Shown: piece by piece, positions 3 through 15,124 of the stretch | How the letters are laid out: every line of letters begins with the position of its first letter | Position numbering within the stretch: the first letter of the stretch is position 1 | Origin: Clostridia bacterium | Lineage (GTDB): Bacteria; Bacillota; Clostridia; Oscillospirales; CAG-382 | Assembly: GCA_017620655.1 (NCBI GenBank) | Contig: JAGAUT010000079.1 | Location: 1-64,000, forward strand | DNA: 64,000 nucleotides | Direction of reading: 5' to 3' | Notes under the pieces: generated by a model | What the model was told of the DNA's origin: nothing | Database searches by the model: none | Seen by the model: only the letters and a program-made list of their open reading frames with translations | Program-made: the position numbers and the translations under genes

Positions 3-2744
3 AAAGCACGAGAAATCAAGCTTGAGAATATGCTTGTTAATATACTTTCTCTGAGGAACATTATTGATGACAACTTTTTTAGCATTTTCAAAATCACGGT
101 ATGAATACATACGCCAATAAGCAGGTGTATCCACCGAGAAGTTGGCAAACTGATTATAAACCTTTACACCGTTTATCGTTCTCAGCATACCCATGCTGTC
201 GTTATCACATGCCGATTCGATGTTTATATTTCTTACATGACGGTATGTATAGCGAGCATTAATATGGTCAGCCGCTCTGCGCACGATAACCTGATTATCA
301 CCGGACATCGAAAGCATTTCGTAATACTTTCCTCCAAGGGTGAGAAACTGTCCCGGCAGATACTTCTGAAGAATATGTCCTTTAAGCTCTGTTCCGAGGA
401 AAGTACTTTCATTTCCTCTTTCGGCAATATACTTTGCACTCTGCAAATCATCTATTACGTACTGCTTAAAGTAATTATTTGTTATTACATAGAAATCTTC
501 AAACTTACCTGTTTCAACCGAGAATTCGTGCTTATAGACTATAGTATCCTCTGTGAACGCTTTGACTCCCACAGGGGTATTTACTACAATCTTATCTTCG
601 CCGTTCTTACAGTAGATTGCACATATATTCTTCCAGATGATGCTTTCAAGCTTTCCTTCAGAAGTGTCTATATCAATAAGTGCGAATTCCTTAAGAACAT
701 CTTCCTTGCGTATACCGAGAATGCTCATCTGCAGGCATATTTTAAGAACAATATTTCTCTTTGTTCTTGCATAGTCTGCAGAAATGTAAGGAATCGCCTT
801 GGGATCTGATGTGAATATCTCATTATTTTCCGTCATATAGTCACGAAGCATATAATCGGATGAGATAACATTTACAAATCCTTGGTTCTTAGCTATTGTT
901 GAAAATTCTCGTTTTACTTCGAACAAGTTGCAGAATTCGTCTTCTACAGTAACAAAGGAATTATCCTTGGTCTGTTCGTTACAGTAATTGAAGGATACCT
1001 TGAAATACTTATCAAAGGTTTCCTGTGTCGCAGGAAGGGGTGTAGTTGCAAGAAGATCGTGATAATACTGCTTTGCAATCCAATGCTGGTCAAGCACGGG
1101 ATATGCATCGCCGCCGTACCATATAACCTTCTCTACATGGTTTTTGAGGGCAACAAGGGATATTTCCGTACCCATACCGAGATATCTCGATATACCGGGT
1201 GTAATTCTGTGCTGAAGGTATTCGCTGTCTGCCTTCCAACACATATACGAGCTTGTTCCCTCGGGAAATTCTGTTGCAGAAACCTCGGTAATATTTGTCA
1301 TAAGAATATGAGAAAGCGAGTCAACAAGACCGTCGCTGTTCTTATCTACCGAGCAATATACCGCATTGTTGCTTACGCTGATATTTCTTACAAGAAGATT
1401 AAGCCCTATCTGTGCTGTAGTCACAAGCCTTGAAGGCTCAAGCAGGAACACAAAGGACACTTCATTAAGAAATGCTCTGTTCGCCTTATGCAGTTCAAGG
1501 TCGTGAACGCCGGATCTTGTTACTATACCGATATCGCAGGGCTCTCCCTCTCTGTCAAGCTTTTTGATATTCCAGAGCGAAGGAAGACCTGTCACCTGCG
1601 AGAAACCGTCATTGCACCAGTTTATAATATCATCTTCGGTTCCGTGTCTGCCAAGCACAATAAGCACTTTCCCGCCTTTAAGCAAAGCGGTATGCATGGC
1701 ATAGAACATATAGGGTGTGAGTTTATAGTAGAATGGCGTATTGAAGAGAAGACTCTTTCCGCATGTAAGTTCTATACCCGAACGCACATAGTCCGCACTG
1801 GGTTTGAAGCCGGACAAAGCTTTTTTACGGATAAACATTGCGTAGTTTTCGCCTGTTTTACCGTACTCTTCTTTAATCTCTTCAAGAATCTGATCAATCG
1901 AACCGCCTCTGACAACACCGTCATTTACGGTAGTTCCGTCTGACATGAGTTTGTCGCCGAAAAGCTCACTCAGCTTTTTACGAAGAATGGCATAATTTGT
2001 GACGTGTCTTGAATTATCAATCTCTGCTGAGAATACGCTGTCGAGCTGTTCATATTCCATACCGTCTATAAAGAAAGCTACTTCACCCATTATTATTATG
2101 GGGAATATGGGATAGAATGGAACAAGTATAAGTCCCTTTTCGCAGAGATAGAAGGAAACAAATACGGCAACGGCTGAGATTGCAACAGTAGCATAGTATG
2201 CAGTCTTGATGAATGTCTTCGCCTGACCGAAATGTCTCTTGATATACCACATACCTGTTTTTTCGTCAAAATCATAGAATATACCCACAAAACGATTCGA
2301 CTGCGAGGTATTATACTTTTTAGACGTAAACAGGAGAAGTATAAACTTCTTAACTATGAGATAACAAAGCATCGAGCATACATTGAACAGAATAAGCAGA
2401 ACATATGTTACGTTGAACTTTGTCAGCAGGCTGCTTATAAATTCAGCGATGATGTTCAGCACACCCGAAGCCCAGCTCAGGTAGCTTATTTCTGCCACCT
2501 TCAGTGCCCAATCGTTCAGCGTATACACTATGGTATAGAAGAACGAATAAAAAATATCACTGAGCTTATTTGTAAATATAAATAGAATAACAGCTACCGC
2601 TACCGCAACAAACGGCATGAAAAACTGTTTATTTCTGACTTCTTTTTTTACGTTTGCCTTTGCATTGAGGAACACGAAGAGGAGGAATGGAATAAATGCA
2701 AGAGACAAGAGTATGTTGTTTAACATATTAGTCATACTAGTCAT
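3..2744 (-). CDS. Multi-pass membrane protein with degenerate SF2 helicase-like region (partial, C-terminus off window)
   Basis: An open frame of 914 codons runs to the left edge without a stop. I chose the ATG at 2744 because GGAGG lies 6 nt upstream; it overlaps the stop of the upstream gene in ATGACTAG, implying translational coupling. About five hydrophobic segments lie near residues 8-27, 41-60, 110-132, 180-200 and 205-225. A long soluble part follows in which LFNTPFYYKLTP (333-344), GKVLIVLG (358-365) and FLLEPSRL (433-440) resemble motifs Ia and II of large superfamily-2 helicases, but no Walker A motif was found and the DEAD box reads LEPS. A later segment around LPGQFLTLGGKYYEML resembles the accessory domain of Lhr-like helicases. 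I infer a membrane-tethered, probably ATPase-dead helicase relative. It is the last visible gene of the tubulin/vWA operon; its role is unknown. Confidence 0.6.
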   Translation of the reverse strand, partial: MTSMTNMLNNILLSLAFIPFLLFVFLNAKANVKKEVRNKQFFMPFVAVAVAVILFIFTNKLSDIFYSFFYTIVYTLNDWALKVAEISYLSWASGVLNIIAEFISSLLTKFNVTYVLLILFNVCSMLCYLIVKKFILLLFTSKKYNTSQSNRFVGIFYDFDEKTGMWYIKRHFGQAKTFIKTAYYATVAISAVAVFVSFYLCEKGLILVPFYPIFPIIIMGEVAFFIDGMEYEQLDSVFSAEIDNSRHVTNYAILRKKLSELFGDKLMSDGTTVNDGVVRGGSIDQILEEIKEEYGKTGENYAMFIRKKALSGFKPSADYVRSGIELTCGKSLLFNTPFYYKLTPYMFYAMHTALLKGGKVLIVLGRHGTEDDIINWCNDGFSQVTGLPSLWNIKKLDREGEPCDIGIVTRSGVHDLELHKANRAFLNEVSFVFLLEPSRLVTTAQIGLNLLVRNISVSNNAVYCSVDKNSDGLVDSLSHILMTNITEVSATEFPEGTSSYMCWKADSEYLQHRITPGISRYLGMGTEISLVALKNHVEKVIWYGGDAYPVLDQHWIAKQYYHDLLATTPLPATQETFDKYFKVSFNYCNEQTKDNSFVTVEDEFCNLFEVKREFSTIAKNQGFVNVISSDYMLRDYMTENNEIFTSDPKAIPYISADYARTKRNIVLKICLQMSILGIRKEDVLKEFALIDIDTSEGKLESIIWKNICAIYCKNGEDKIVVNTPVGVKAFTEDTIVYKHEFSVETGKFEDFYVITNNYFKQYVIDDLQSAKYIAERGNESTFLGTELKGHILQKYLPGQFLTLGGKYYEMLSMSGDNQVIVRRAADHINARYTYRHVRNINIESACDNDSMGMLRTINGVKVYNQFANFSVDTPAYWRMYSYRDFENAKKVVINNVPQRKYINKHILKLDFSCF

Positions 2745-4920
2745 ATATTTCCTCCATTCTAAGCGTTATCTTGCTGACAAAATCAGATGAGAGTTCAATC
2801 TTGTTATCAGGTGCCAGATAGTCAATAAAGATTCTGTCGTCCGGAAGATAGGGCGGATAATATTCATATTCCACGTTTTCAATTCCGAAATCGTACGGAT
2901 AAGGAGCAGACGAAAGATCGTCGGGAACGACATTTACATCATAGAAATCTTCGTACATATCGAGAATTGATGCCCTTGTCTTTTCCATATCTGTTTTGTG
3001 CTTCTTGCGGATTCGGATATCCCTGTCATACTTATCAACATTATTTTCCGAGAAATTCAACACTCTGTAACCGCGTCTGACATTGGCAACACAGCTGAGA
3101 TAATCGGAATACTTACCCATGGCATCCCTTACTTCGTTATCAATCTCCCCTACCTTTGCGTTAAAATCACTCAGTGCATCCTTCAAAGGCTTACGGAGCA
3201 ATATTACCGTTATTACAAGGACCACCAAAAGAAGTCCTGCAAACAGCAAAACAAACAAAAGCGAGGTTGATACCGTATTAAAGGTTGCCCTGTTCGAGAG
3301 CAGTATGGGCATAAAGGATACAACAAAGAGAAGCATACATATAAGACCGAGAACAAGGTTTGTCTTTCTCTTCATTCTGCGCCCTATTACTGCAGAAACA
3401 TTCTCGCTTTCCTTATTTATCTCTTCATGGTAGCGTGTAAGGTCAAAAATGTTTGTCACTTCCGTGGACACCATTTTATCCTTCTGGGTTTCCGTATGGT
3501 CACGGACATCGTCCATCTGGAATGAGTTCATGGCACGGATCATATTATAATCCACGTCACATTCGCGTTCCAGCTTCTCTATGGATTTTTTCAGAGCGCG
3601 TCTGGGCTGCTTGGCAAGTTTTTCGACAGACTCACTTGTACGCTTTGTCTGTGCCGACCAATTTGAAGAATCGTTTCCGAACGAATCACTGAAAAATCCA
3701 TAGTCCTTATGATCAACATAAAGATCTTCTTCATTGAAGTCCTCATTGGGCAGTACAGGTACGGTTACCTTGGCACAAAACAGCTTTTCGGCATCAGAAT
3801 CCGAAAGCTCCTTGGGAACGTCCCGTTTGATTTTCTCAATCTGTCCGTCTACAAGCTCTATTGAGTTATTAAGCTTATTTACATATGCCGAAACGATGGA
3901 ATTAAGTGATTTTTCGTTATTTTCACTTTCAAGGCAATACAGCTTTCTGGGCTGAATAGCTCCGCCGGGAACCTCATTAAGTGAAAACAGAAGGAGATTG
4001 TACAAAAAGCGTATACGGTCGTATCTGTAATTCTGATGTGTATTTGGAAGAATATCGGATGCTATAAATCTCATTTTGTCGAAATACATATTTCTTCCGA
4101 CAAAATCGGAATATTCCTGTCCGATATGGGTTTCCCAGTATACACGGTCATCGAAGAATCCAGTTTCGGTGGTTCTTTCCGCAAAGCAGAATACTTCTGC
4201 GGGAAGAGCTATGCCCATCGAGCTTTTTTTACTTGTAAGACCGTCGCCCGGAAGCATCTGTTCAAGACATTCTGCTCTGAGACTGCTCTTGAGCTTATCC
4301 TGCTCAAGGTGATACAAGCGGTCAAGCTCCAAAAGATATTTTTCGAAATTCATGCGATCAAGAACTTTATCGAAAAAGTCAATTGCCTCATGTTTTTCTG
4401 CAGGATTGTTGCTCTGCAAACCGTCCGGAGCAAAGCAAAGGCATGTCACAAGTCTCTGAAAAGGATAGCTGAGTGCATCTCTGAAGATTTCAGTATTATC
4501 CCTGAGGCGAGCGTTTATACGCTCGCCGCAGTCGTTTTTCCACTTTTCAAAAGATTCCTGAGACAAAACTTCAAAATCGGTTTCTTCGGACGACACATCA
4601 TCTCTGATATCTGTCTCATCAAGGGGATTTACCAGCTTATTTTTTTCTGCACACTCAAGAATTCTGTCGTAGCCGATGGCATCGAAAGGATTCTGTAAGA
4701 GCGAAAGGCTGTCATCCTTAAGAATTACTGCACGCCATGTTGCATGTCTTCCGACCTTTTTTACAAGAGAAGGAACACATTCGTATAAGTTTTTTCCCTC
4801 GGGATTCCATTCACAAAACGCAAACTCTTTATTTAATCTGTCAAGAAACGGCTTGAAATACAGTTTATTCTGTTCAATCGCGTCAAAATGCTTTTTTTCA
4901 GCTATTATGACAGTGTACAT
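2737..4920 (-). CDS. Conserved two-helix membrane protein of the tubulin/vWA operon, unknown function
   Basis: This 727-residue protein matches no family I recognise. It has a long N-terminal region with no signal peptide (about 1-515, rich in charged residues), two adjacent hydrophobic helices near residues 517-538 and 548-570, and a charged, probably coiled-coil C-terminus of about 150 residues. With two helices and a short loop, both large parts should lie in the cytoplasm. It starts 34 nt after the tubulin-like gene and its stop overlaps the start of the next gene, so the genes are surely co-transcribed. A membrane anchor or adaptor for the tubulin-like protein is a reasonable inference from context, but nothing in the sequence proves it. 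Confidence 0.75.
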   Translation of the reverse strand: MYTVIIAEKKHFDAIEQNKLYFKPFLDRLNKEFAFCEWNPEGKNLYECVPSLVKKVGRHATWRAVILKDDSLSLLQNPFDAIGYDRILECAEKNKLVNPLDETDIRDDVSSEETDFEVLSQESFEKWKNDCGERINARLRDNTEIFRDALSYPFQRLVTCLCFAPDGLQSNNPAEKHEAIDFFDKVLDRMNFEKYLLELDRLYHLEQDKLKSSLRAECLEQMLPGDGLTSKKSSMGIALPAEVFCFAERTTETGFFDDRVYWETHIGQEYSDFVGRNMYFDKMRFIASDILPNTHQNYRYDRIRFLYNLLLFSLNEVPGGAIQPRKLYCLESENNEKSLNSIVSAYVNKLNNSIELVDGQIEKIKRDVPKELSDSDAEKLFCAKVTVPVLPNEDFNEEDLYVDHKDYGFFSDSFGNDSSNWSAQTKRTSESVEKLAKQPRRALKKSIEKLERECDVDYNMIRAMNSFQMDDVRDHTETQKDKMVSTEVTNIFDLTRYHEEINKESENVSAVIGRRMKRKTNLVLGLICMLLFVVSFMPILLSNRATFNTVSTSLLFVLLFAGLLLVVLVITVILLRKPLKDALSDFNAKVGEIDNEVRDAMGKYSDYLSCVANVRRGYRVLNFSENNVDKYDRDIRIRKKHKTDMEKTRASILDMYEDFYDVNVVPDDLSSAPYPYDFGIENVEYEYYPPYLPDDRIFIDYLAPDNKIELSSDFVSKITLRMEEIYD

Positions 4921-4954
4921 AAAGCATACCTCCGTTTTATTTCTGATAGATTAA

Positions 4955-7900
4955 TTATCTTGAACGCTTTGCGATATGGTCGAGAAGTGTCTCGTAATCT
5001 TCGGGTTCGGGTGCAGAACGAACTTCTTCCTGAATCTTTCTTCTGATAACATCAAGAACTTCGTTATCTTCAATGCGCTCAGGAACATTGATTTCAGGAT
5101 GTTCAACATAAAGGTGGTAGTTATTCTGGAGCAAGTCAAACTCGTTTACGAGTCTGTCGCAAAGAACAAACTTTACGTCCTCTTCCTTTTCCCATGTTTC
5201 ATATTCTTCTCTGAATACGCTGATTACAGCATCAACCATAGCATTGAGTTCGGAAATGTATCTGCTGGAATTGGGGAGAGAATAATAATAGATAAGCGGA
5301 ATCGCAAAGAGGCTGGTTGTGTTTTCTGTAAATCTACCTTCAAAGTCGGGATTGTTCTTCTTTTCCAATGCATTCTTCTGAATTTCTTCCGCGAGCTTTG
5401 AAAGTTCCTTTGCAGACAGAGGAGCAGCTTTTCTCTTGCCATCATAGAATGTAAACATGTCAAAGTTAGCCATATCCTTGAAGAATTCGGTTTCTTCATA
5501 GTTACAGTTCTTCATGATACTCATTGCGCGCTTACGCTGCTTAACTACTTCGTTGATATCCTCAACTACCTTTGCATTTACATAGAGAGCATCGAGGATT
5601 TCATAGAACTCATCACAAAGAGTACCGTTTGAAACAACGAGAGACTCAAAGCGGTCGATGGAGTTCTTATAGTTGTATACAAGCTTACCGCCTGCCTTGA
5701 GGGAGAGAGGATTGTGCTGGATAGCATCGTGAACGATACCATAGATAAACGCCTTATGAATATCAAGAATAATGTTCTGCTGGTATTCGTCATCAATTTC
5801 AGGCATAACCTTAATGCTGTCCCAACGCTTATCGATATGTGTCGACATAGCGGCATTCTTTGTGGAATCGGGACCTATGCTCTTGGAATAGCTATGGTAA
5901 GCCTTATGGTATGTACCGGATTCCTTCTTACCTGTTTCTGTTGTGTAAGGAGCCGCAAACTTCTTGAGCTTATCGGGAGTTACATTATAAAGAGCGTTGA
6001 AGAAACGGATTTCATACTTGGATACAGATTCGCAGGGATCACCCTTTTCAAGGAGAACCTTAACATTGAACTGACGGTTATCTGTAAGGCTTGTGTTATA
6101 AGCACAACGGTTGATTTCTCTGGGTTCTACGTTGAGCATTCTCTGGATGGAGGGAGCTGCAATTCTTGAACCCATGGCAATCTTTGTCTTGAGGTAGGAT
6201 TCAGCATCACTCTGCTTGAAAATGAATTCTGTGCCGTTTGCACGAGCCTTCAAACCTTCAATAAGCTTATATTCAAGAACAATAGAGTTGATAACATCGA
6301 CATTGATTTCTTCGCACTTTTCGCAGATTTCATCCTTAAAGTAACCCATAAGAATGTCGTCAAAGATATCCTTATGACGGTTTTCGATGGAAAGATCGTC
6401 GCCTGCGATGGCTCTTTCCATGTTGAATACTGCATTCTTCTTAACCTGATCGAAGATAGCGCCGTTGATTTCGGAACTGAGAAGTGTGGATTCCTGAGAA
6501 ATCTTGCTGAGAGATGTACGGCTGAGTTCAGCAAGCACATCACCGTCAGAGCAGATATTCATAACGGAGTCGCCCTTCTTATACTTGAGTTCGTTTGCGA
6601 TATCGTCCTTCACGCGGCTGAGTCTCTTAACCTTTTCTTCAAAAGAACCGAAGAAGCTTTCATATTCTTCTGCATATGCCTTGATATAGCTGTATGCCTT
6701 TTCGTAAGCTGCATGCTTAGCTTCTTCGTTACAGAATGCCTTTGCCTTTCTGAAGTAATTGGGAAGAGCTTCATTTGCTGTTTCGAAAAGACTGTTATAT
6801 CCCTTCATCTTATCAACAAGAGAGGGATTTTCCTTTTCAAGTTCTCTGAGTCCTTCAAGACCTGTAACAGAGTTCTTTACAAACTTGAAGGAGTATTCAG
6901 CGTTTTCTGTAGCTTCGAGAGCCTTAGCGGCATCAAGATGATCGCCCTGCTTGAGTCTTTCTTCAAACTCGCTCTTGAGCTTGTAGATTATGTAACGGGC
7001 AGCACAAGGATGTGAAACGTCACCGATGCTGTTCTTGAGAAGCTTTTCAATGCTGTAATCCTCATCAATTATAGTTGTAGGTCTTTCATTGGTGAATACG
7101 CCTTCGATAAAGCGTCTTGCAATGTCGGCAACCTTATAGGAACCGTCCTTTGCCTTTTCCTTAACCTTGTTTCTGTAAGCGATAAGGCTGTCAATATTGT
7201 TGCTGAGAGAATTTTCGGGGTTAGTATAATCAATTGTAGAGCAGAGGCTTGATGCGGCATTGAGAACGTTGAATATTGTGGGATCTTCACTTACAACAGC
7301 TTCAATCTGAGCATCAAGGTTAGCCATATACATTTCTACACGTTCATCAATGTTTTCAAGGAAAACGCCAACCATATCCTTGGAGAAGCTGTCGCCGCCG
7401 GATTTAGCCGAGCTGTCAAGATGTTCAATGTAGAATTCGCCGAGCTTCTTAGAGGATTCAAGAGACTGGCCGCGCTTCTTCTGTTCCTTCATGTAAAGCT
7501 TATGAGCCTTATCGTATCTTGTCCACTTGGAGGACTCGCCTTCGCCGCCGATACTGTCTGCAGCAAGGTCGCATGCAACATAGTCAACAATTCTTTCGTA
7601 AGGATAACGAACGATACCTGCACCGATACCGCCGAATCTGTTACGTCCGCGAGACTTTGCAAGTTCCTTGATGATATTATCTTCTGTGGAAGCCGCCTTT
7701 CTCTGCATAGGACCGATATTCTGTTCATATAGAGCGATGGAAGCCTGTTCCTTATACTGCTCATAGCTTGTGAGAGTACTGTCTTCAGCATCCTGTCCGT
7801 CCATAAGGAAACAGAAGTCGATAGGAAGTGTAGAGAGAGACTTGAGCTTATCGGAGCCTGCTATCGGCACGTCAACATGAAGGTCACGGTACTGCCAGAG

Positions 7901-8623
7901 GTCGGGATCAAGGTCAACAAAGCCCGAACCCTTCATCATAAACGCATTGAGTTCCTTGATGGTAGCATAGCCGTTACGAGCCTGGCTGTCACGTTCTGTC
8001 TGGGAGTCAATAACACTGTCGAGTGTTTCGGGAAGGAGAAGGAGCGCTCTTGTAAGAAGGGCTGCATTGGGGTACTTTTCCTTAACGTAGTTTCTGATAA
8101 ACATGGAGATGGGAAGGATCATACCGGAACCTGTACCGCCGGAAGACGAGCTTGCAATGATACAACGCATTGACTGCTTGAGTTCCTTACCTGTCTTTCT
8201 GAAGAGGCTGTCGATAGCATCATAGAGAGGACGGATTCTGCCTGTCTTGATTGTTGCATCAACTGCGAGACGGGAAATTGCACGAACCTGACCTGCACCT
8301 TCGGACATTGTCTTATCGTACATTACTGCACTCTTGGGGAACCAGCGCTTACGTGCATCTTCATCGTTGTCAAGGAATGCACCGACTGTCTGGGTTGTGG
8401 ATGTCTGAATGATGTGTACAAATGGGAGTTCGTCCTTAATTCTCTTAAGGTCGTTAACGTCAGTATCCATGCAGAGGAAGCTGATGTTTTCTCTTTCAGC
8501 AGGATGACATCTCTTTGCGATTCTCTTTACAATGTCACAACCTGCACCGCCGATACCGAGGAAAAGGTACGCTGCATTGACTTCATTGGGCTTAAGGTCT
8601 TCGTTAATTCTTTTTGTTTCCAT
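4955..8623 (-). CDS. Tubulin/FtsZ-superfamily protein (Tubulin_2-like), 1222 aa
   Basis: The N-terminus carries the nucleotide-binding layout of the tubulin/FtsZ superfamily: LGIGGAG at 22-28, an MDTD acidic strand end at 52-55, and the diagnostic G-box GGTGSG at 162-167. The remaining 800 or so residues form a long, mostly helical extension absent from FtsZ (usually 350-400 residues) and typical of the large Tubulin_2 (PF13809-type) proteins. There is no signal peptide or membrane helix, so it should be cytoplasmic. AAGGAGA precedes the ATG by 7 nt. It sits between a membrane vWA gene and a membrane-helix gene with 34-nt gaps. Makarova and Koonin (2010) predicted a membrane-remodelling role for FtsZ-like proteins paired with vWA proteins. 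GTP binding is likely; polymerisation is inference. Confidence 0.85.
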   Translation of the reverse strand: METKRINEDLKPNEVNAAYLFLGIGGAGCDIVKRIAKRCHPAERENISFLCMDTDVNDLKRIKDELPFVHIIQTSTTQTVGAFLDNDEDARKRWFPKSAVMYDKTMSEGAGQVRAISRLAVDATIKTGRIRPLYDAIDSLFRKTGKELKQSMRCIIASSSSGGTGSGMILPISMFIRNYVKEKYPNAALLTRALLLLPETLDSVIDSQTERDSQARNGYATIKELNAFMMKGSGFVDLDPDLWQYRDLHVDVPIAGSDKLKSLSTLPIDFCFLMDGQDAEDSTLTSYEQYKEQASIALYEQNIGPMQRKAASTEDNIIKELAKSRGRNRFGGIGAGIVRYPYERIVDYVACDLAADSIGGEGESSKWTRYDKAHKLYMKEQKKRGQSLESSKKLGEFYIEHLDSSAKSGGDSFSKDMVGVFLENIDERVEMYMANLDAQIEAVVSEDPTIFNVLNAASSLCSTIDYTNPENSLSNNIDSLIAYRNKVKEKAKDGSYKVADIARRFIEGVFTNERPTTIIDEDYSIEKLLKNSIGDVSHPCAARYIIYKLKSEFEERLKQGDHLDAAKALEATENAEYSFKFVKNSVTGLEGLRELEKENPSLVDKMKGYNSLFETANEALPNYFRKAKAFCNEEAKHAAYEKAYSYIKAYAEEYESFFGSFEEKVKRLSRVKDDIANELKYKKGDSVMNICSDGDVLAELSRTSLSKISQESTLLSSEINGAIFDQVKKNAVFNMERAIAGDDLSIENRHKDIFDDILMGYFKDEICEKCEEINVDVINSIVLEYKLIEGLKARANGTEFIFKQSDAESYLKTKIAMGSRIAAPSIQRMLNVEPREINRCAYNTSLTDNRQFNVKVLLEKGDPCESVSKYEIRFFNALYNVTPDKLKKFAAPYTTETGKKESGTYHKAYHSYSKSIGPDSTKNAAMSTHIDKRWDSIKVMPEIDDEYQQNIILDIHKAFIYGIVHDAIQHNPLSLKAGGKLVYNYKNSIDRFESLVVSNGTLCDEFYEILDALYVNAKVVEDINEVVKQRKRAMSIMKNCNYEETEFFKDMANFDMFTFYDGKRKAAPLSAKELSKLAEEIQKNALEKKNNPDFEGRFTENTTSLFAIPLIYYYSLPNSSRYISELNAMVDAVISVFREEYETWEKEEDVKFVLCDRLVNEFDLLQNNYHLYVEHPEINVPERIEDNEVLDVIRRKIQEEVRSAPEPEDYETLLDHIAKRSR

Positions 8624-8657
8624 AACTGTTCTCCTTAATTTATAGTAAATTTATTTT

Positions 8658-11222
8658 TTATTCAAACTTTATGTCATAGGACACAGTAAATTTAGTTGCT
8701 CTGCCGTTTATATCTTTTGTTCCGGAATAATTCATTGTTCCCTGCGGGAAATTGAAATCCTTTACGCTTTCTGATGCACGGATAAGGGATCCGTCTTTCT
8801 TGCTGCGGAAGAATGACTCATTGCCAATATCCAGTTTAGCTACAGTGTTAGGATTAGGCTTTACACTTCCATTTACCACCAATGCTTTTCTCTTCTTTGA
8901 GGGAAGATATCTGTAGCTATCCTTTGCAGGAATGAGTGTTGCACTCCAGCTTGCATCGGAAAGATCTCCCGTTCCCTTGATTTTAATATCGCGTCTTTTT
9001 CCTTTTGAGGGATATCTCACGGTTGCCTTCAATGTATCAACTGTTTTGATACCAAGTTTTACCGAAACATTTACAAGTCTTATCTTCTTAGGCAAAACGG
9101 GAGTTCTGAGCCAGAGCCAGATAATAAGTGCTATCAAAAGGATTATGAGAATCCAGAACAGCCACTTCAGCCACAAAGCAACAAGGCTGAGGGTTACTGT
9201 AAGAGCCCCTTCTGTTTCTGTCACTCTGCCGATGTGGTCGGTATATTCTGCCTTTACTCTGATGGGATAATTGCCCTCAGCTATACCCTTTGTGGGTAAA
9301 AGCTTGATAAGGTATGCAGAATTCTTCTTATCGGGTGTAACTTTATGTTCAATTCCGCCGCAATCAACCGAAAGCTTTATTGCATCAAAGTCCTGTTCGC
9401 TGAGCTTTTTGCCCTTAAAGCTGAATGATGCAACTATCGGGCGGCTTTCTTCAATATCTTTGATTGTGATGTAGCTGTCGGGTGCATACAAATCCATATG
9501 CACGGGAACAAAATCATCTCTGATGATATACGAAAGTGTCTGCTGTACCTGAGCGTTGTCGCTGCCTTCCTTCTGATAAGAAGCATAAATGGTTACGGTA
9601 CATTTGCCGCACTGCGTATCCTGAGGATTTGATGTATCCTTATAGCTTAACAAAAGATTGTAGTGATCGTCTGCAAACTCAGGTGTAATTTTTGCATAGG
9701 TTACATCTTTATCCCAATCAAGAACAACCTTTTCAAGCTCTGCTCCGGTGAGCTTACTTCCTTCATAGAAAATCTCGGCAATAAAGGGACTTCCCTTGGG
9801 GAGATCCTGCAACGAATAATAATCGTCGCCGCCTGAAATTTTAAGCTTCATGTTCCCCGCGGGCATCGGAAGAACCTTGATACCTCCAAAAGGCCAGCCA
9901 AAGTCTGTGGAGCGTTTTGTAATTGTATATCCGCTAAGATATGTAACGGTAAGATTGGCATCGAAAGTATCACCCATTTTCAAATATACATTTTCATATC
10001 CGCTATACCCATCGCAAGCAATTGGCGTCTCTTCGCCTTTGACAGAATAGGTGCCACGATATTTCGGGGTGCCAAGAAGTTCAGAAGAAATAATTACTTG
10101 TTCTTTATTATCCCACATTCCAAAACTTATCGAGTAGTCGCCCTCATAAAGAGCATCGGGATTTACATCATTTCCTTCGGAATCCGTAAATACAAAATCA
10201 AGGTCTACATCCGGCTCGTAATACACCTCAAAGGTGGGTTTTTCGCCGGAATACTGGATTTTATATTTTCCAGATTCACAACCGCCAAATGTGAGAATCT
10301 CCCCTTGAAGCGAAGTGTCGGATTCAACAACAACCTTTCCGTTAAGCCATTTTCCCGCACCTTTTGTCGAATATTTAGTGGTAGTTTTGCTGAGTGCCTT
10401 CAAAGGCTTGCCGTTTTCGCCAACAACTTTTAAATCGGAAATATTCTTACCCTGTGCAAACAGGATAAGCTTGCTCATTGAAATGTCAAATTCAAAGCTA
10501 TCTCCCGAAATATACTTTTTGGGTAAAGTATCTCTGCCGAAAATACGGTTACACATTTCCGTTAGAGCCGAGAGAACATCCTCACTGTTCACAACATGTT
10601 TTTTTTCGAAATAATCCGATTCAGGGGTATCAGGAATTACGGCTTTCTCACCGATTCCCAGATACATGATTGTCATATCTGGACCGGCGTTGTTCTGGAT
10701 GATTTCATCGAGAAGAGGCTTTGCCGCGTTTCCTTTATAATCTGTACTACCGCGTTTAAACGAATCGCCATCGGTAAGTACAACAAGATATTTATTGCCA
10801 CTATTTACTTCACTAAGACCATTGATGGCGCTGTCAATACTTTCAATAGGCGTTCCCTGTGCATTCGGTGTATAAATCTCACGTATATCGGACGCCTGTT
10901 TAGCTCCGGTTATTTTCATGGGATTATCCATGGTATACTTTTCGCCGTCAACCTCAATTTCCCACATGGGATAAATCATAAGCGTATCGCCTTCGTTAAG
11001 CATTGAAGCGAAAACTTCCATAGCGTAGGTTGCACGGCACCACGCCTTGAGCGGTTGCCCATTGTTCTCGCTCGTCATATACATCGAACCGGAATTGTCA
11101 AAAACAATGGCTATCGTTCTTTTATCCTCAACCTTTTTGGCAGCCTCTACCCCGGTTGTTCCGATGTTTATGCATATGAAGAACAAAAACACCGCAAGCA
11201 GTGCACTTGTAAATTTCTTCAC
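8658..11222 (-). CDS. Secreted/membrane-anchored von Willebrand A domain protein
   Basis: An 854-residue protein with a signal peptide (1-28, cleavage probably after VEA), then a vWA domain whose MIDAS motif DNSGS is at 42-46 and whose later TDGDS metal site is near residue 150. A beta-rich extracellular region follows to about 680, then one transmembrane helix (683-705, very rich in L, I and W) and a basic cytoplasmic tail of about 150 residues. The start is GTG at 11222, with AAGGAG 10 nt upstream. Metal binding and adhesion or protein-protein contact are expected from the intact MIDAS. The outside-to-inside topology would let it connect an extracellular ligand to the cytoplasmic tubulin-like protein encoded next; that link is inferred. 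Confidence 0.85.
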   Translation of the reverse strand: MKKFTSALLAVFLFFICINIGTTGVEAAKKVEDKRTIAIVFDNSGSMYMTSENNGQPLKAWCRATYAMEVFASMLNEGDTLMIYPMWEIEVDGEKYTMDNPMKITGAKQASDIREIYTPNAQGTPIESIDSAINGLSEVNSGNKYLVVLTDGDSFKRGSTDYKGNAAKPLLDEIIQNNAGPDMTIMYLGIGEKAVIPDTPESDYFEKKHVVNSEDVLSALTEMCNRIFGRDTLPKKYISGDSFEFDISMSKLILFAQGKNISDLKVVGENGKPLKALSKTTTKYSTKGAGKWLNGKVVVESDTSLQGEILTFGGCESGKYKIQYSGEKPTFEVYYEPDVDLDFVFTDSEGNDVNPDALYEGDYSISFGMWDNKEQVIISSELLGTPKYRGTYSVKGEETPIACDGYSGYENVYLKMGDTFDANLTVTYLSGYTITKRSTDFGWPFGGIKVLPMPAGNMKLKISGGDDYYSLQDLPKGSPFIAEIFYEGSKLTGAELEKVVLDWDKDVTYAKITPEFADDHYNLLLSYKDTSNPQDTQCGKCTVTIYASYQKEGSDNAQVQQTLSYIIRDDFVPVHMDLYAPDSYITIKDIEESRPIVASFSFKGKKLSEQDFDAIKLSVDCGGIEHKVTPDKKNSAYLIKLLPTKGIAEGNYPIRVKAEYTDHIGRVTETEGALTVTLSLVALWLKWLFWILIILLIALIIWLWLRTPVLPKKIRLVNVSVKLGIKTVDTLKATVRYPSKGKRRDIKIKGTGDLSDASWSATLIPAKDSYRYLPSKKRKALVVNGSVKPNPNTVAKLDIGNESFFRSKKDGSLIRASESVKDFNFPQGTMNYSGTKDINGRATKFTVSYDIKFE

Positions 11223-11255
11223 TGATTCTTCACTCCTTTTTGTTGCTGTGCATAT

Positions 11256-11579
11256 TTACTTTTGCTTGACGAACTCCACACCGTCTATATAAATTGAATT
11301 ACCGTCTTTTTCAAAGCTCTTTACCATATCATAGCTGAGTCCGAAAAGGCTGTATGTGATTGTTATTTCATCCTTTTCAATCATGTATTCCCCGGTAACA
11401 TCAACACCAAATGCGGAAACCTTTACCTTGTTATCTTCCATAAAAGTAAATGTCTGCTTGATGAAACCGTCCGTCTGTTCATATGTGCCGTTAAGTTTTA
11501 CAGCACAGGACACAAGGGTAAATACCGCAGCAACAGCCAAAACAACTGCTGCAACTCTTTTTAAAAGTCTTTTTTTCAT
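11256..11579 (-). CDS. Small lipoprotein, first gene of the tubulin/vWA operon
   Basis: A 107-residue protein starting at the ATG at 11579, which has GGAGG 8 nt upstream; an in-frame TTG 15 nt earlier overlaps that ribosome site and is unlikely. The N-terminus is basic and hydrophobic and ends in a lipobox LVSC, so the mature protein should be lipid-anchored outside the membrane. The rest, about 80 residues, alternates in a beta-strand pattern with repeated F/Y-x-x-D/K elements, like the small secreted lipocalin-type domains common in Clostridia. It lies 34 nt upstream of the vWA gene and follows the only promoter seen for the operon. Function is unknown. Confidence 0.75.
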   Translation of the reverse strand: MKKRLLKRVAAVVLAVAAVFTLVSCAVKLNGTYEQTDGFIKQTFTFMEDNKVKVSAFGVDVTGEYMIEKDEITITYSLFGLSYDMVKSFEKDGNSIYIDGVEFVKQK

Positions 11580-11632
11580 AAAAACAACCTCCAAAGTTAT
11601 TCTTTCTGTATCGCCTAATATTTTGTTGAAAA

Positions 11633-11662
11633 ATTATACAAATTTATATTTAGGGATAACAA
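11633..11662 (-). promoter_or_regulatory. Probable sigma-A promoter of the tubulin/vWA operon
   Basis: On the minus strand TTGTTA (11662-11657), an 18-bp spacer and TATAAT (11638-11633) lie about 55 nt before the lipoprotein start. No other convincing promoter was found further down the operon, so all five genes probably depend on it. Confidence 0.6.
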
Positions 11663-11887
11663 ATATTTTATCACCAAAATCGCAAAAAATCAACAATTTC
11701 GACATATTTCGGCATTTTTTCTACATTTCTTACAAAACAGTGCCGCTTTAATTAGTTAATACGTTAATATTTGGACCGTGAATGACATTATTTTGTCAAA
11801 GAATTCGCCAAAACTCGTGTGTTGCACGGTCATGCAAGGCAAGAACCGGAACATCCGCACCGTCATCTGTCTTTTTATAAATTCCTA

Positions 11888-11916
11888 TTTACAATTCACC
11901 ATGCCGGGTATATAAT
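11888..11916 (+). promoter_or_regulatory. Sigma-A promoter of the LCAT-like lipase gene
   Basis: TTTACA (11888-11893), a 17-bp spacer and a perfect TATAAT (11911-11916) lie 30 nt upstream of the start codon at 11947. Confidence 0.75.
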
Positions 11917-11946
11917 TAATAAAAACAACTAACGAGGAAGTGAAAC

Positions 11947-13203
11947 ATGAAGCGATTATATTTGACAGGCGGAGCAATTATTCTCACTCTCATTTTAGTA
12001 CTTATTCTGGTATTCAGTTGCACAAGAAACAAAGAACCCGACGCAATAATAATTCTGCCCGGCATTATGGGAAGCGATTTATTCCTTGCTGAGCAAGCCG
12101 TATACGACGGCGATGTTTATCCCGCTGATACAAAGCTATGGATTGACATAGATTCGGTAAGGAAGATTTTCAAAACAGCCGAACACATCCGAATGCTTGC
12201 ACCGGAGAACAATTTCAACATCCGTCCGGATGCCCCTGTTATCAACGACCTTAAAACACTCGGAAACTACGGTGCAATGAATACATACGGTGTTTTATAC
12301 AAACAGATATACTCGCAGTTCCACGACACATGTGACGTGATACTTTACAACTATGACTGGCGCGAAGATCCCTATGAAACGGCTCGAAAGCTTGACCGAT
12401 TTATATCCGAGAGAGATTATCAAAGCGTTTCCTTTGTGGCACACAGCATGGGCGGTCTTGTAGCGTCCCATTATTTTGCCATGGGCAAAACACAAAGGAG
12501 CAAAGTAAACACATTTCTTTCTCTTGGTACCCCCTATCTTGGCTCCGAGCAAGCATCAAATGCCATGCTGACAGGCAACATCAGCGGTTTTATCGCAAAT
12601 GTATTTATTTCAGATGAAATAAGAAACATATGCCCAAAGCTCGATTCAATGTATGCACTGTTACCCTACGAACATCTATGGCGCAGTTCACTTGCCGTTT
12701 ACGATTTAACGGGATCTGACCGTTCATTATCATTTGAAGATGAAGAACATTTACTAGAAGAGTTTGCACAAGGATACAGTCAGAAACAGCATGACACAGC
12801 AAAAAGAAACAAAGAGCTGTTATTTACCGAAAAAGGCAAGCATATAAGCGAGCTTGTTAACTCTTATTATCTTGCGGGTGACGGCCAGGAAACCGTCAGT
12901 GTAATTAATTTACCCAAGATAGCAGAGCTTTCAAACACACTAAGCACGACTTCCAAAACATCATCGGGAGACGGCACGGTATCCTTATACAGTGCCACTG
13001 TTGCAGGAACGCTTCCCAAAAAAAGAACATTCATCAAATCAGAGGATAAAAAAAGCAAATCCTCCCACGATTCACTCGCCGACGGAAGTGATATATCTAC
13101 CATGGATTTTATCATCGAAGTTCTGAAGGGCAATGCAGACAAGATGTCGGATTCCGATTTAGAAAGAAAATACAACATTCGCAGAGCATCAAACGATAAA
13201 TGA
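11947..13203 (+). CDS. LCAT/PDAT-like alpha/beta-hydrolase (lipase or acyltransferase), exported
   Basis: A 418-residue protein with an N-terminal hydrophobic segment (8-24) ending at Cys25 (VFSC), which could be a lipobox or an uncleaved anchor, so the enzyme should face outward. ILPGIMGSDL (36-45) matches the oxyanion strand of lecithin:cholesterol acyltransferase relatives. The nucleophile elbow AHSMGG places the serine at 167, GDGTV near 340 supplies the likely aspartate, and SHDSL near 377 the likely histidine. Members act on phospholipid or triacylglycerol esters; the real substrate cannot be read here. GAGGAAGTG precedes the ATG. It has its own promoter and terminator and so is a single-gene unit divergent from the tubulin operon. 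Confidence 0.8.
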   Translation: MKRLYLTGGAIILTLILVLILVFSCTRNKEPDAIIILPGIMGSDLFLAEQAVYDGDVYPADTKLWIDIDSVRKIFKTAEHIRMLAPENNFNIRPDAPVINDLKTLGNYGAMNTYGVLYKQIYSQFHDTCDVILYNYDWREDPYETARKLDRFISERDYQSVSFVAHSMGGLVASHYFAMGKTQRSKVNTFLSLGTPYLGSEQASNAMLTGNISGFIANVFISDEIRNICPKLDSMYALLPYEHLWRSSLAVYDLTGSDRSLSFEDEEHLLEEFAQGYSQKQHDTAKRNKELLFTEKGKHISELVNSYYLAGDGQETVSVINLPKIAELSNTLSTTSKTSSGDGTVSLYSATVAGTLPKKRTFIKSEDKKSKSSHDSLADGSDISTMDFIIEVLKGNADKMSDSDLERKYNIRRASNDK

Positions 13204-13229
13204 TGGGCTGATGCGTAATTGACACAGCA

Positions 13230-13259
13230 AAAGCGGAGTGAATATCACTCCGCTTTTTA
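13230..13259 (+). terminator. Rho-independent terminator after the lipase gene
   Basis: A 12-bp stem (13230-13241 with 13245-13256) with a 3-nt loop ends in a T tract on the plus strand. Confidence 0.9.
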
Positions 13260-13269
13260 TGTTGCTGTC

Positions 13270-13298
13270 TTTACTTTTCAATTCGTTTATGATAAAAT
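13270..13298 (+). promoter_or_regulatory. Probable promoter of the 199-residue orphan gene
   Basis: TTTACT (13270-13275), a 17-bp spacer and TAAAAT (13293-13298) lie about 40 nt before the start codon at 13340. Confidence 0.5.
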
Positions 13299-13339
13299 GA
13301 AAGCAGAAATCACAAAAAACACCAAGGAACACAAAAGAC

Positions 13340-13939
13340 ATGACCGAATTTGACAAAAAAGAAATCCTTATTACTCAAAGAGCGAGAATGTACATGGAAA
13401 AATTGTCAAAAGGCATAAGTCCAATTGACGACAGTACAATTGAAAACGACAGTGTTTTAAACAACAGCAAGGTAAGAAATTGTTTTAAATACCTTATAGG
13501 GATTCTTGAAACATACGAAGAAGCACTGGAAGGCGTTGCGGAACCGCAAAAGCAAGTCTTTACCAAAAAGAAAAAGCCATTCTATCTAAGATTTGAAGAA
13601 CGGCTGATGATTCCTATCTCGGATAAAAAGCTGAAAACAGGCGATTTTGTAAAAATTATCAATACTCTTATTGACGAAAACGTTATGCGGCGGTTGAAAA
13701 TTTCATCCGTAAACAAATGGCTTATAAAAAAAGGGTTTCTTGAAACCGTCGCAGGAATTGACGGCAAAAATCACAAATGGCCGACAGAGGCAGGGGTTGA
13801 AATAGGGATCAGCAAGGAGAAATACATGAGCAAAACGGGATTCCCCTATTTCGCCGTTCTTTTAGACCGCAATGCACAGCAAATCGTTGCTGACAACATT
13901 GAGGAAATTATTGAGATAAATAATATGAAAAAGAAGTGA
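13340..13939 (+). CDS. Uncharacterised 199-residue protein
   Basis: I do not recognise this protein. It is soluble and basic, with no signal peptide or membrane segment. The middle (about 100-150) has a helix-turn-helix-like rhythm containing INTLIDE and SSVNKWLIKKGFL, which suggests a winged-helix fold. The C-terminus contains SKTGFPYFAVLLD followed by an acidic helix. It lies alone between a terminator and a convergent terminator, next to the end of the glycan cluster, and has a plausible promoter of its own. A DNA-binding regulator is possible, but only from this weak pattern. Confidence 0.65.
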   Translation: MTEFDKKEILITQRARMYMEKLSKGISPIDDSTIENDSVLNNSKVRNCFKYLIGILETYEEALEGVAEPQKQVFTKKKKPFYLRFEERLMIPISDKKLKTGDFVKIINTLIDENVMRRLKISSVNKWLIKKGFLETVAGIDGKNHKWPTEAGVEIGISKEKYMSKTGFPYFAVLLDRNAQQIVADNIEEIIEINNMKKK

Positions 13940-13957
13940 GTTGTATGCTCACTTCTT
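13931..13957. terminator. Bidirectional terminator between convergent genes
   Basis: A 10-bp stem (13931-13940 with 13948-13957) and 7-nt loop with A tract and T tract on either side. It overlaps the stop codons of both the 199-residue gene and the last gene of the downstream glycan operon. Confidence 0.85.
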
Positions 13958-15124
13958 TTCTTTCAAGCCCAGTTGTTCCAATAGCAACTCCATATTATCA
14001 AAGTCTGCAAAATTGGGCATTACGGGTAATACCAGTTCATTCTTGGCAATTTTCAGATATCCCGGTTTAAAAATTCTAAGCCATCTGGATATCTCGCAAA
14101 ATGGCGTCATCCACTTGTGCTTTCTTATGATGGGGTACTGTATTTTGAGCTTATCATATGATAAAAACACCGTATTTAAGATACGTTTTATTTTACTATC
14201 ATTTTTTGCATAAGCCACAGAATGCCGATTACTTGCCGTACCATAAGTGCCGCCTCTCAAAACAAAGTTTTGAAGTTTTATAATAGTTTCATTACTCTTT
14301 CCGTCAGAAAACCAAAAATCACTTAGTTCCCTGCTGCAATCAGCAAACTTGAGCAATCCGCATTTATTAAGCAAAATATCTCTTTTTTCTTTATCATGAT
14401 CAACCTTGTTATCAAGAATCCATAAATCAAGAAAAGGTCTAATTCCGCAGCCACCGCTTTCAAAATGTTTTGCCATATGATATATGTGATACAAATAAAA
14501 GAATTCATCGCTCAAAACACAATAGTAAGCTTTTCCTTCTTTTGGACAAGCATACTCCCAAACCCTATCTATCAGCTTTTCTGCCGAGCTTTCATAATAT
14601 ATTTCCGATAATTTATAATGAAGCTCTATATGGGTTCCGTTTTGAGAAAAAAGCGAAACATCATGAGTTCCGGATTCATCTTTTTTATAGCCATAAACAT
14701 TTCCCAGAAGCATGGATGCCCTTTCCAAATCTTCTTCATGCACAAGAATATCGATATCACAGCTTGTTCTCATCCACGGCTCTGGGTAATAATCACGTAT
14801 TACAGATCCTTTGAGGGGAACAAACTGAATATGCTCGGACTCAAAAGCATCACACACCTGGCAAAAAATCTGATTGGTTGCCTCATAACGAACAGCTGCA
14901 ATTGGATGGCGTTTTTTGAGTTTTTTTGTAAGTTCAGTTTGCTCAAGCGGTATTCTATTTTTTTCAATTGCATAAGATACTAAGTGGGAAATATCGTGGT
15001 GTTTTGAAAACTTATACAATTTGTCAGCACAGTTGAAAACTGCCTCTCTCGTTTCCTCATCAATCACAGTTTCAAATACAGCATTTCTGATGAGCGAAAA
15101 CAGGATTTCTATAGTAGGTTTCAA
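13949..15124 (-). CDS. NTP_transf_5-type nucleotidyltransferase, last gene of downstream glycan operon
   Basis: A 391-residue protein with the core motif of the uncharacterised nucleotidyltransferase family (PF14907-type): PLKGSVIR at 103-110, then PEPWMRTSCDIDILV with the paired metal-binding aspartates at 123 and 125. The start is TTG at 15124 with AGGAG 7 nt upstream. The protein at 29868-31037 is a clear paralogue; the two align without gaps through at least residue 130 and both end their operon. The family is frequent in capsule and exopolysaccharide clusters, but its substrate is not established; transfer of a nucleotidyl or sugar-phosphate group is inferred from the fold. Confidence 0.8.
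   Translation of the reverse strand: MKPTIEILFSLIRNAVFETVIDEETREAVFNCADKLYKFSKHHDISHLVSYAIEKNRIPLEQTELTKKLKKRHPIAAVRYEATNQIFCQVCDAFESEHIQFVPLKGSVIRDYYPEPWMRTSCDIDILVHEEDLERASMLLGNVYGYKKDESGTHDVSLFSQNGTHIELHYKLSEIYYESSAEKLIDRVWEYACPKEGKAYYCVLSDEFFYLYHIYHMAKHFESGGCGIRPFLDLWILDNKVDHDKEKRDILLNKCGLLKFADCSRELSDFWFSDGKSNETIIKLQNFVLRGGTYGTASNRHSVAYAKNDSKIKRILNTVFLSYDKLKIQYPIIRKHKWMTPFCEISRWLRIFKPGYLKIAKNELVLPVMPNFADFDNMELLLEQLGLKEKK

Follow-up and report, generated by a model that had tools for sequence, protein, structure and literature searches.

A conserved clostridial operon of Tubulin_2 and vWA genes with a probable membrane-bound pseudo-helicase and a candidate output metallopeptidase

FtsZl1/vWA operons were described by Makarova and Koonin (2010), who proposed a function in membrane remodelling; according to the main text of that paper, a P-loop GTPase, a protein kinase or an OmpA partner is frequent in these operons but not obligatory (PMC2875224). 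Loci with a tubulin, a vWA protein and a DO-GTPase (the DO-GTPase/GAP1-N2 systems) were interpreted by Kaur et al. (2020) as predicted conflict systems, in a class that includes firmicute systems consisting of a tubulin, a coiled coil and an extracellular vWA protein (PMC7159879). YprA helicases have a central place in DISARM and Druantia according to the main text of a 2025 survey, in which no association with tubulin or vWA proteins is reported (PMC12458937). The literature that we searched contained no experimental work on Tubulin_2/FtsZl1 proteins. Here we analyzed a Tubulin_2 locus from a clostridial genome. An earlier note on this DNA referred only to Makarova and Koonin (2010) and left the 2020 treatment of vWA/tubulin conflict systems (PMC7159879) uncited.

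The window of 64,000 nucleotides is the start of contig C17 (69,900 bp). Its minus strand carries five open reading frames between positions 3 and 11594, which encode a lipoprotein, a vWA protein, a Tubulin_2 protein, a protein denoted CC2TM and a helicase-like protein. Because the window starts at the first base of C17, the fifth gene, encoding the helicase-like protein, is truncated by the contig end and has no stop codon there. By profile search, what is missing was located on another contig of this genome, at the end of C66; the ends of C17 and C66 share an exact overlap of 141 nt, which looks like an assembly k-mer. On C66, the remainder of the helicase-like gene is followed by a sixth gene, which encodes a metallopeptidase with a zinc ribbon and an HExxH motif. 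In support of the join, the two pieces on C66 are both 70–77% identical to L019, the sister locus. The previously claimed five-gene operon was thus correct as regards the five same-strand reading frames and incomplete as regards the metallopeptidase gene on C66. The features of the locus are the following:

1–141, no strand: contig-end sequence common to the end of G000:C66 (exact match), where the operon continues
3–2744, minus: probable MrfA-like membrane-anchored pseudo-helicase, first 914 residues, 3′ end missing (Foldseek, five TM segments, motif II EPSR)
L057:17561-18724, minus: remainder of the pseudo-helicase gene on G000:C66 (141-nt overlap)
L057:16432-17706, minus: metallopeptidase gene on C66 (contig overlap and profile search)
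2737–4920, minus: CC2TM (coiled coil and two TM segments); AlphaFold2 and TM prediction give a long helical bundle, a TM hairpin and, at the N-terminus, a small alpha/beta domain
4921–4954, minus: intergenic gap of 34 nt with ribosome-binding site CGGAGG, length variable in relatives
4955–8623, minus: Tubulin_2/FtsZl1-family GTPase, 1222 aa (PF13809, E 9.4e-51)
8624–8657, minus: intergenic gap of 34 nt with ribosome-binding site AAGGAG, length variable in relatives
8658–11222, minus: membrane-anchored extracellular vWA protein (signal peptide, MIDAS, TM segment, cytosolic tail)
11223–11255, minus: intergenic gap of 33 nt with ribosome-binding site AAGGAG
11256–11594, minus: small accessory lipoprotein with lipobox LVSC (sequence; translation probably starts from the ATG at 11579)

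The relatives show the operon to be real and conserved. The earlier note had proposed a search of relatives for a conserved neighbourhood; among close relatives with loci long enough for testing, the order vWA, Tubulin_2, CC2TM and helicase-like gene on one strand was kept in 15/15. The overlap that had been noticed between the last two genes, CC2TM and helicase-like, amounts to 8 nt in the window and is kept in all 15 relatives, where it measures 8–50 nt. The near-identical gaps of about 34 nt were read correctly in the window (33, 34 and 34 nt); as a feature of the operon they were rejected, since the corresponding lengths vary from 5 to 221 nt among relatives. CC2TM is present in all complete relatives.

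The distribution of the operon is patchy: a Tubulin_2 relative was found in nine of 63 genomes of the family and in none of the three other genomes of the same genus included in that search. In the class (391 genomes), the helicase-like protein was confined to five of the 14 genomes with Tubulin_2, and a profile search yielded the metallopeptidase in two genomes of the phylum out of 398, both of which carry the operon. Many of the relatives are gut and rumen MAGs. Searches of viral contigs, phages and plasmids gave no match for the pseudo-helicase; for the Tubulin_2 protein, plasmids gave one distant tubulin-like match, and mobile carriage was rejected on these grounds. A distant version of the operon (L060:1808-16510) contains two vWA-like genes and a gene for a 996-aa pseudo-helicase; the metallopeptidase was not detected in this version.

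The assignment of the third gene as a Tubulin_2-type protein was confirmed by a match to Pfam PF13809 that covers profile positions 1–354 of 356. The motifs GGAG (residues 25–28) and GGTGSG (162–167) are located as described before, and the GTP-binding motifs GGxG and GGTGSG are invariant in 22/22 members. The two refutations offered in the earlier note, a neighbourhood lacking in relatives and a protein lacking the tubulin fold, were both withstood, the second through the strength of this Tubulin_2 match. At another locus (L066:10079-15978), a Tubulin_2 gene adjoins a NYN/LOTUS-domain gene and a gene for a clostripain-family peptidase, which represents another combination.

CC2TM comprises 727 aa and was modelled by AlphaFold2 with a mean pLDDT of 80. 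A TM hairpin is predicted in this protein (TM segments 522–540 and 557–575). Foldseek gave no significant fold match for CC2TM, and its assignment as a dynamin or a pore-former was rejected, the best match (E 0.03) being generic for long helices. The lipobox of the small lipoprotein is present as claimed, and its start is more likely the ATG at 11579. Relatives of this protein were found only in L015 and L016; the lipoprotein is therefore regarded as accessory, and its earlier status as a core partner was rejected.

The helicase-like protein contains five N-terminal TM segments, and its C-terminal part is placed in the cytosol by the positive-inside rule. For the fold search, we used a model of the L019 orthologue (mean pLDDT of 63.8, pTM of 0.41). 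The best Foldseek match was MrfA (6znq; E 3.6e-10, probability 1.00), well above other helicases; MrfA aligned over nearly its full length (residues 35–722) with a Z score of 11.6 over 393 residues and an rmsd of 13.6, values that apply to a model with a pTM of 0.41. Kinship with YprA was not detected by sequence profiles (hhalign P of 0.02–0.65; hmmsearch scores no better than those of shuffles), and comparison of the helicase core with the sequences of solved structures gave chance-level matches. Since the sequence profiles are silent, the YprA kinship is based on the fold match and on the motif order as read by eye. There was no match to the MZB domain (PF09369), and its cysteines are missing from the alignment.

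Motif II reads EPSR in the window protein, EPS[RKL] in close members and DADK or DTDK in distant ones, and an intact DExx motif II was absent from the helicase-like proteins examined. Many members retain GK[ST]; in several, motif I has degenerated. Because motif II is EPS[RKL] and the catalytic motif thus lost, we regard the protein as a probable membrane-bound pseudo-helicase; in the structural model, its fold is most like that of MrfA, of the DUF1998/YprA family. The membrane helicase-like protein of the earlier note therefore holds with respect to the five TM segments and the MrfA-like fold, and an active helicase in the plain sense was rejected.

The metallopeptidase is encoded by a separate gene that overlaps the helicase-like gene in seven relatives, and in L022, L027, L028, L029, L058 and L059 it forms one protein with the pseudo-helicase. 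An N-terminal zinc ribbon is found in 16/16 members examined. The HExxH motif and the downstream glutamate, the third ligand, are intact in 13 of these 16, including that of the window's genome; the loss of HExxH in the other three indicates that protease activity is not always needed. The metallopeptidase, putatively a protease, is a candidate for the output enzyme. A transglutaminase core is fused in L069 (E 1.7e-8) and, less clearly, in L029 (E 0.01); the same region was identified by alignment in L028 and L031.

The vWA protein carries a signal peptide, the MIDAS motif DNSGS, a TM segment at residues 684–705 and a cytosolic tail of ∼150 aa, a predicted topology that agrees with the earlier reading of a secreted, membrane-anchored protein. 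Four of its orthologues match Pfam VWA (best E 1.7e-7); matches of the vWA domain to the sequences of solved structures were at chance level. Comparison of the window with L019 revealed identities of 67–80% for the core and only 33% for the vWA protein. In the core tree, the window and L019 are joined with a support of 100/100. In the ectodomain tree, the window protein lies among those of L015, L016, L021 and L023, and its pairing with L019 is rejected (AU p 0.0004). In the tree of the TM segment plus tail (residues 680–854), the window and L019 are rejoined (98/97), and the other grouping is rejected (p 0.0006). The branch of L019 is long in the ectodomain tree, so L019 may be the changed one, or both may have changed. 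Either way, the trees point to different histories for the parts of the vWA protein outside and inside the membrane. They indicate exchange of the ectodomain between lineages, with the TM segment and tail kept together with the core; a receptor that meets a variable ligand and has constant cytoplasmic partners would be expected to show this pattern.

The flanks of the operon consist mostly of ordinary metabolic genes, in this genome arabinose genes, and a defence island around the operon was rejected on this basis. With PADLOC, no operon protein scored except for a weak match of the protease. Among 101 flank proteins, TIR was the commonest Pfam family (four), followed by Macro and a phosphoesterase family (three each). 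Six TIR matches lie at most 10 kb from the operon, against 0.42 expected from whole-genome counts, and three Macro matches against 0.14, an enrichment that is supportive only, because both families were chosen after they had topped the flank list, which makes the P values optimistic, and flank lengths were derived by hand. In L019, the nearest relative, the operon lies between genes for a TIR-domain protein (L019:327-1322) and a TIR-LRR protein (L019:16732-18585); in L015, the gene directly upstream (L015:2645-4609) encodes a Ser/Thr protein kinase joined to a TIR domain. A family of ∼600 aa recurs beside the operon (L029:15444-17216, L028:19221-20000 and L023:2936-4849); its L029 member weakly matches the RyR domain. 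Another family, of ∼700 aa and without a Pfam match, is found on opposite operon sides in L022 (L022:4970-7093) and L029 (L029:17251-19347), the two proteins being 67% identical. In the window, the gene for a divergent LCAT/PGAP1-like lipase-type protein (11947–13203) adjoins the operon start. The adjoining contig encodes a 1587-aa SLH-domain surface protein with WbsX-like and CBM domains (L057:3176-7939).

We tentatively favour, at somewhat less than even confidence, the reading that the operon is a six-gene chromosomal envelope-sensing module, composed of a receptor, a tubulin-family GTPase and a protease, with a role in conflict rather than in housekeeping. The analysis itself establishes which genes belong together and in what order, their domains and predicted topology, the lost motif, the fusions and the ectodomain exchange; we infer the direction of the signal, polymerisation, activation of the protease and the conflict role. 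Outside the membrane, the vWA protein would bind a variable ligand, and its TM segment and cytosolic tail would relay the signal to the cytoplasmic partners. The Tubulin_2 protein would then assemble at the membrane in a GTP-dependent manner, on a scaffold of CC2TM and the 5-TM pseudo-helicase, and this assembly would position or activate the zinc-ribbon HExxH metallopeptidase as the output enzyme; in some relatives, the transglutaminase-like domain would take this part. The conflict would be with phages or competing cells. Of the earlier idea of an extracellular sensor or adhesin joined across the membrane to a cytoplasmic polymer, the topology and the exchanged ectodomain support an outside receptor with a tubulin-family GTPase on the cytoplasmic side. 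The conserved order, the gene overlap, the occurrence of the pseudo-helicase only in genomes with Tubulin_2 and of the metallopeptidase only in genomes with the operon, the protease and transglutaminase fusions, the intact HExxH and glutamate of 13/16 members, the ectodomain exchange, the nearby TIR and Macro proteins and the patchy distribution speak for the sensing module; the mostly metabolic flanks, the near silence of PADLOC, the loss of HExxH in 3/16 members and the near absence of mobile-element matches speak against it. The more far-reaching claim of a new membrane immune-type class, in which an exchangeable vWA receptor would act on a tubulin polymer and a YprA-derived pseudo-helicase and these on a protease or transglutaminase, appears unlikely at present.

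The intact GTP motifs of the Tubulin_2 protein and the several membrane proteins of the operon would also suit a membrane-remodelling or cytoskeletal machine, in which Tubulin_2 filaments, anchored through CC2TM and the pseudo-helicase, would bend or organise the membrane under the control of the vWA protein on the surface and would serve no immune function. Remodelling was proposed in the main text of PMC2875224, and the earlier note leaned towards it. The helical bundle and TM hairpin of CC2TM weakly resemble bacterial dynamin and pore-forming stalks, but this likeness (best E 0.03) is typical of helical bundles, and the protease, the transglutaminase domains, the patchy distribution and the exchanged ectodomain are left unexplained; we consider such a machine rather unlikely, if still a serious contender. 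A surface adhesion or contact system, in which the vWA ectodomain would adhere to ligands of the host or of microbes and the cytoplasmic parts would cluster it or control its display, would agree with the signal peptide and MIDAS motif, with the ectodomain exchange, which fits variable ligands, and with the gut and rumen origin of many relatives. It is a doubtful explanation, as the large cytoplasmic partners, the pseudo-helicase and the intracellular protease exceed the needs of an adhesin.

Two further readings tie the operon to described defence or conflict systems. Plain membership in the DO-GTPase/GAP1-N2 group of tubulin conflict systems that Kaur et al. (2020) treated is suggested by the firmicute tubulin, coiled-coil and extracellular vWA systems of that class (PMC7159879) and by three other Tubulin_2 loci of the same taxonomic class (L063, L064 and L065), which carry DO-GTPase and vWA genes. 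This reading is already weakened and very improbable: no DO-GTPase was found in window positions 3–15124, which comprise the operon proteins and the three genes next upstream, and BLAST did not find the pseudo-helicase or the protease in the DO-GTPase loci. Least probable among the alternatives is a helicase still active on DNA or RNA, the module handling nucleic acid at the membrane as a relative of DISARM and Druantia. The DUF1998 helicase MrfA as best fold match, the GK[ST] retained in many members and the central place of YprA helicases in both systems (PMC12458937, main text) argue for it; EPS[RKL] as motif II in all close members, the degraded motif I of several and the fact that no nuclease domain was recognised among the operon proteins argue against it.

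As an envelope-sensing module, the operon would be a compact, defined Tubulin_2 system with a likely input, the exchanged ectodomain, and a likely output, the protease, which makes the question of Tubulin_2/FtsZl1 function testable. The YprA group, known from anti-phage defence, would extend to a membrane-bound, catalytically dead scaffold.

The operon differs from each of the related systems in defined features. With the FtsZl1/vWA operons it has in common an FtsZl1 protein whose C-terminal extension is long, an adjoining vWA gene and lineage-specific membrane proteins (PMC2875224, main text), whereas the helicase and the protease found here are not mentioned in that text. P-loop GTPase, protein kinase and OmpA partners were not found among the operon proteins, the TIR-kinase gene of L015 lying upstream. 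One of the present families may have been listed earlier, unnamed, in the supplementary files of the same paper. A tubulin and a membrane-anchored extracellular vWA protein in firmicutes are shared with the DO-GTPase/GAP1-N2 systems (PMC7159879); here, by contrast, a pseudo-helicase and a metallopeptidase are present, and DO-GTPase and GAP1 were not detected in the operon. The fold of the soluble part of the pseudo-helicase is common to the MrfA/YprA-family (DUF1998) helicases of MrfAB, DISARM, Druantia and ARMADA (PMC12458937; MrfA residues 35–722), from which it differs by five N-terminal TM segments, the lost motif II, missing MZB cysteines and no significance in sequence profiles. The metallopeptidase shares HExxH and the downstream glutamate with the HExxH metallopeptidases of Pfam DUF6782 and BSP and of PADLOC PDC-M69B, the Pfam matches all being under the curated cut-off and the PADLOC match weak, and differs from them by its N-terminal zinc ribbon. 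Taken together, the operon is of a kind already known from FtsZl1/vWA operons and tubulin conflict systems, and its combination of a pseudo-helicase with a protease looks new and undescribed.
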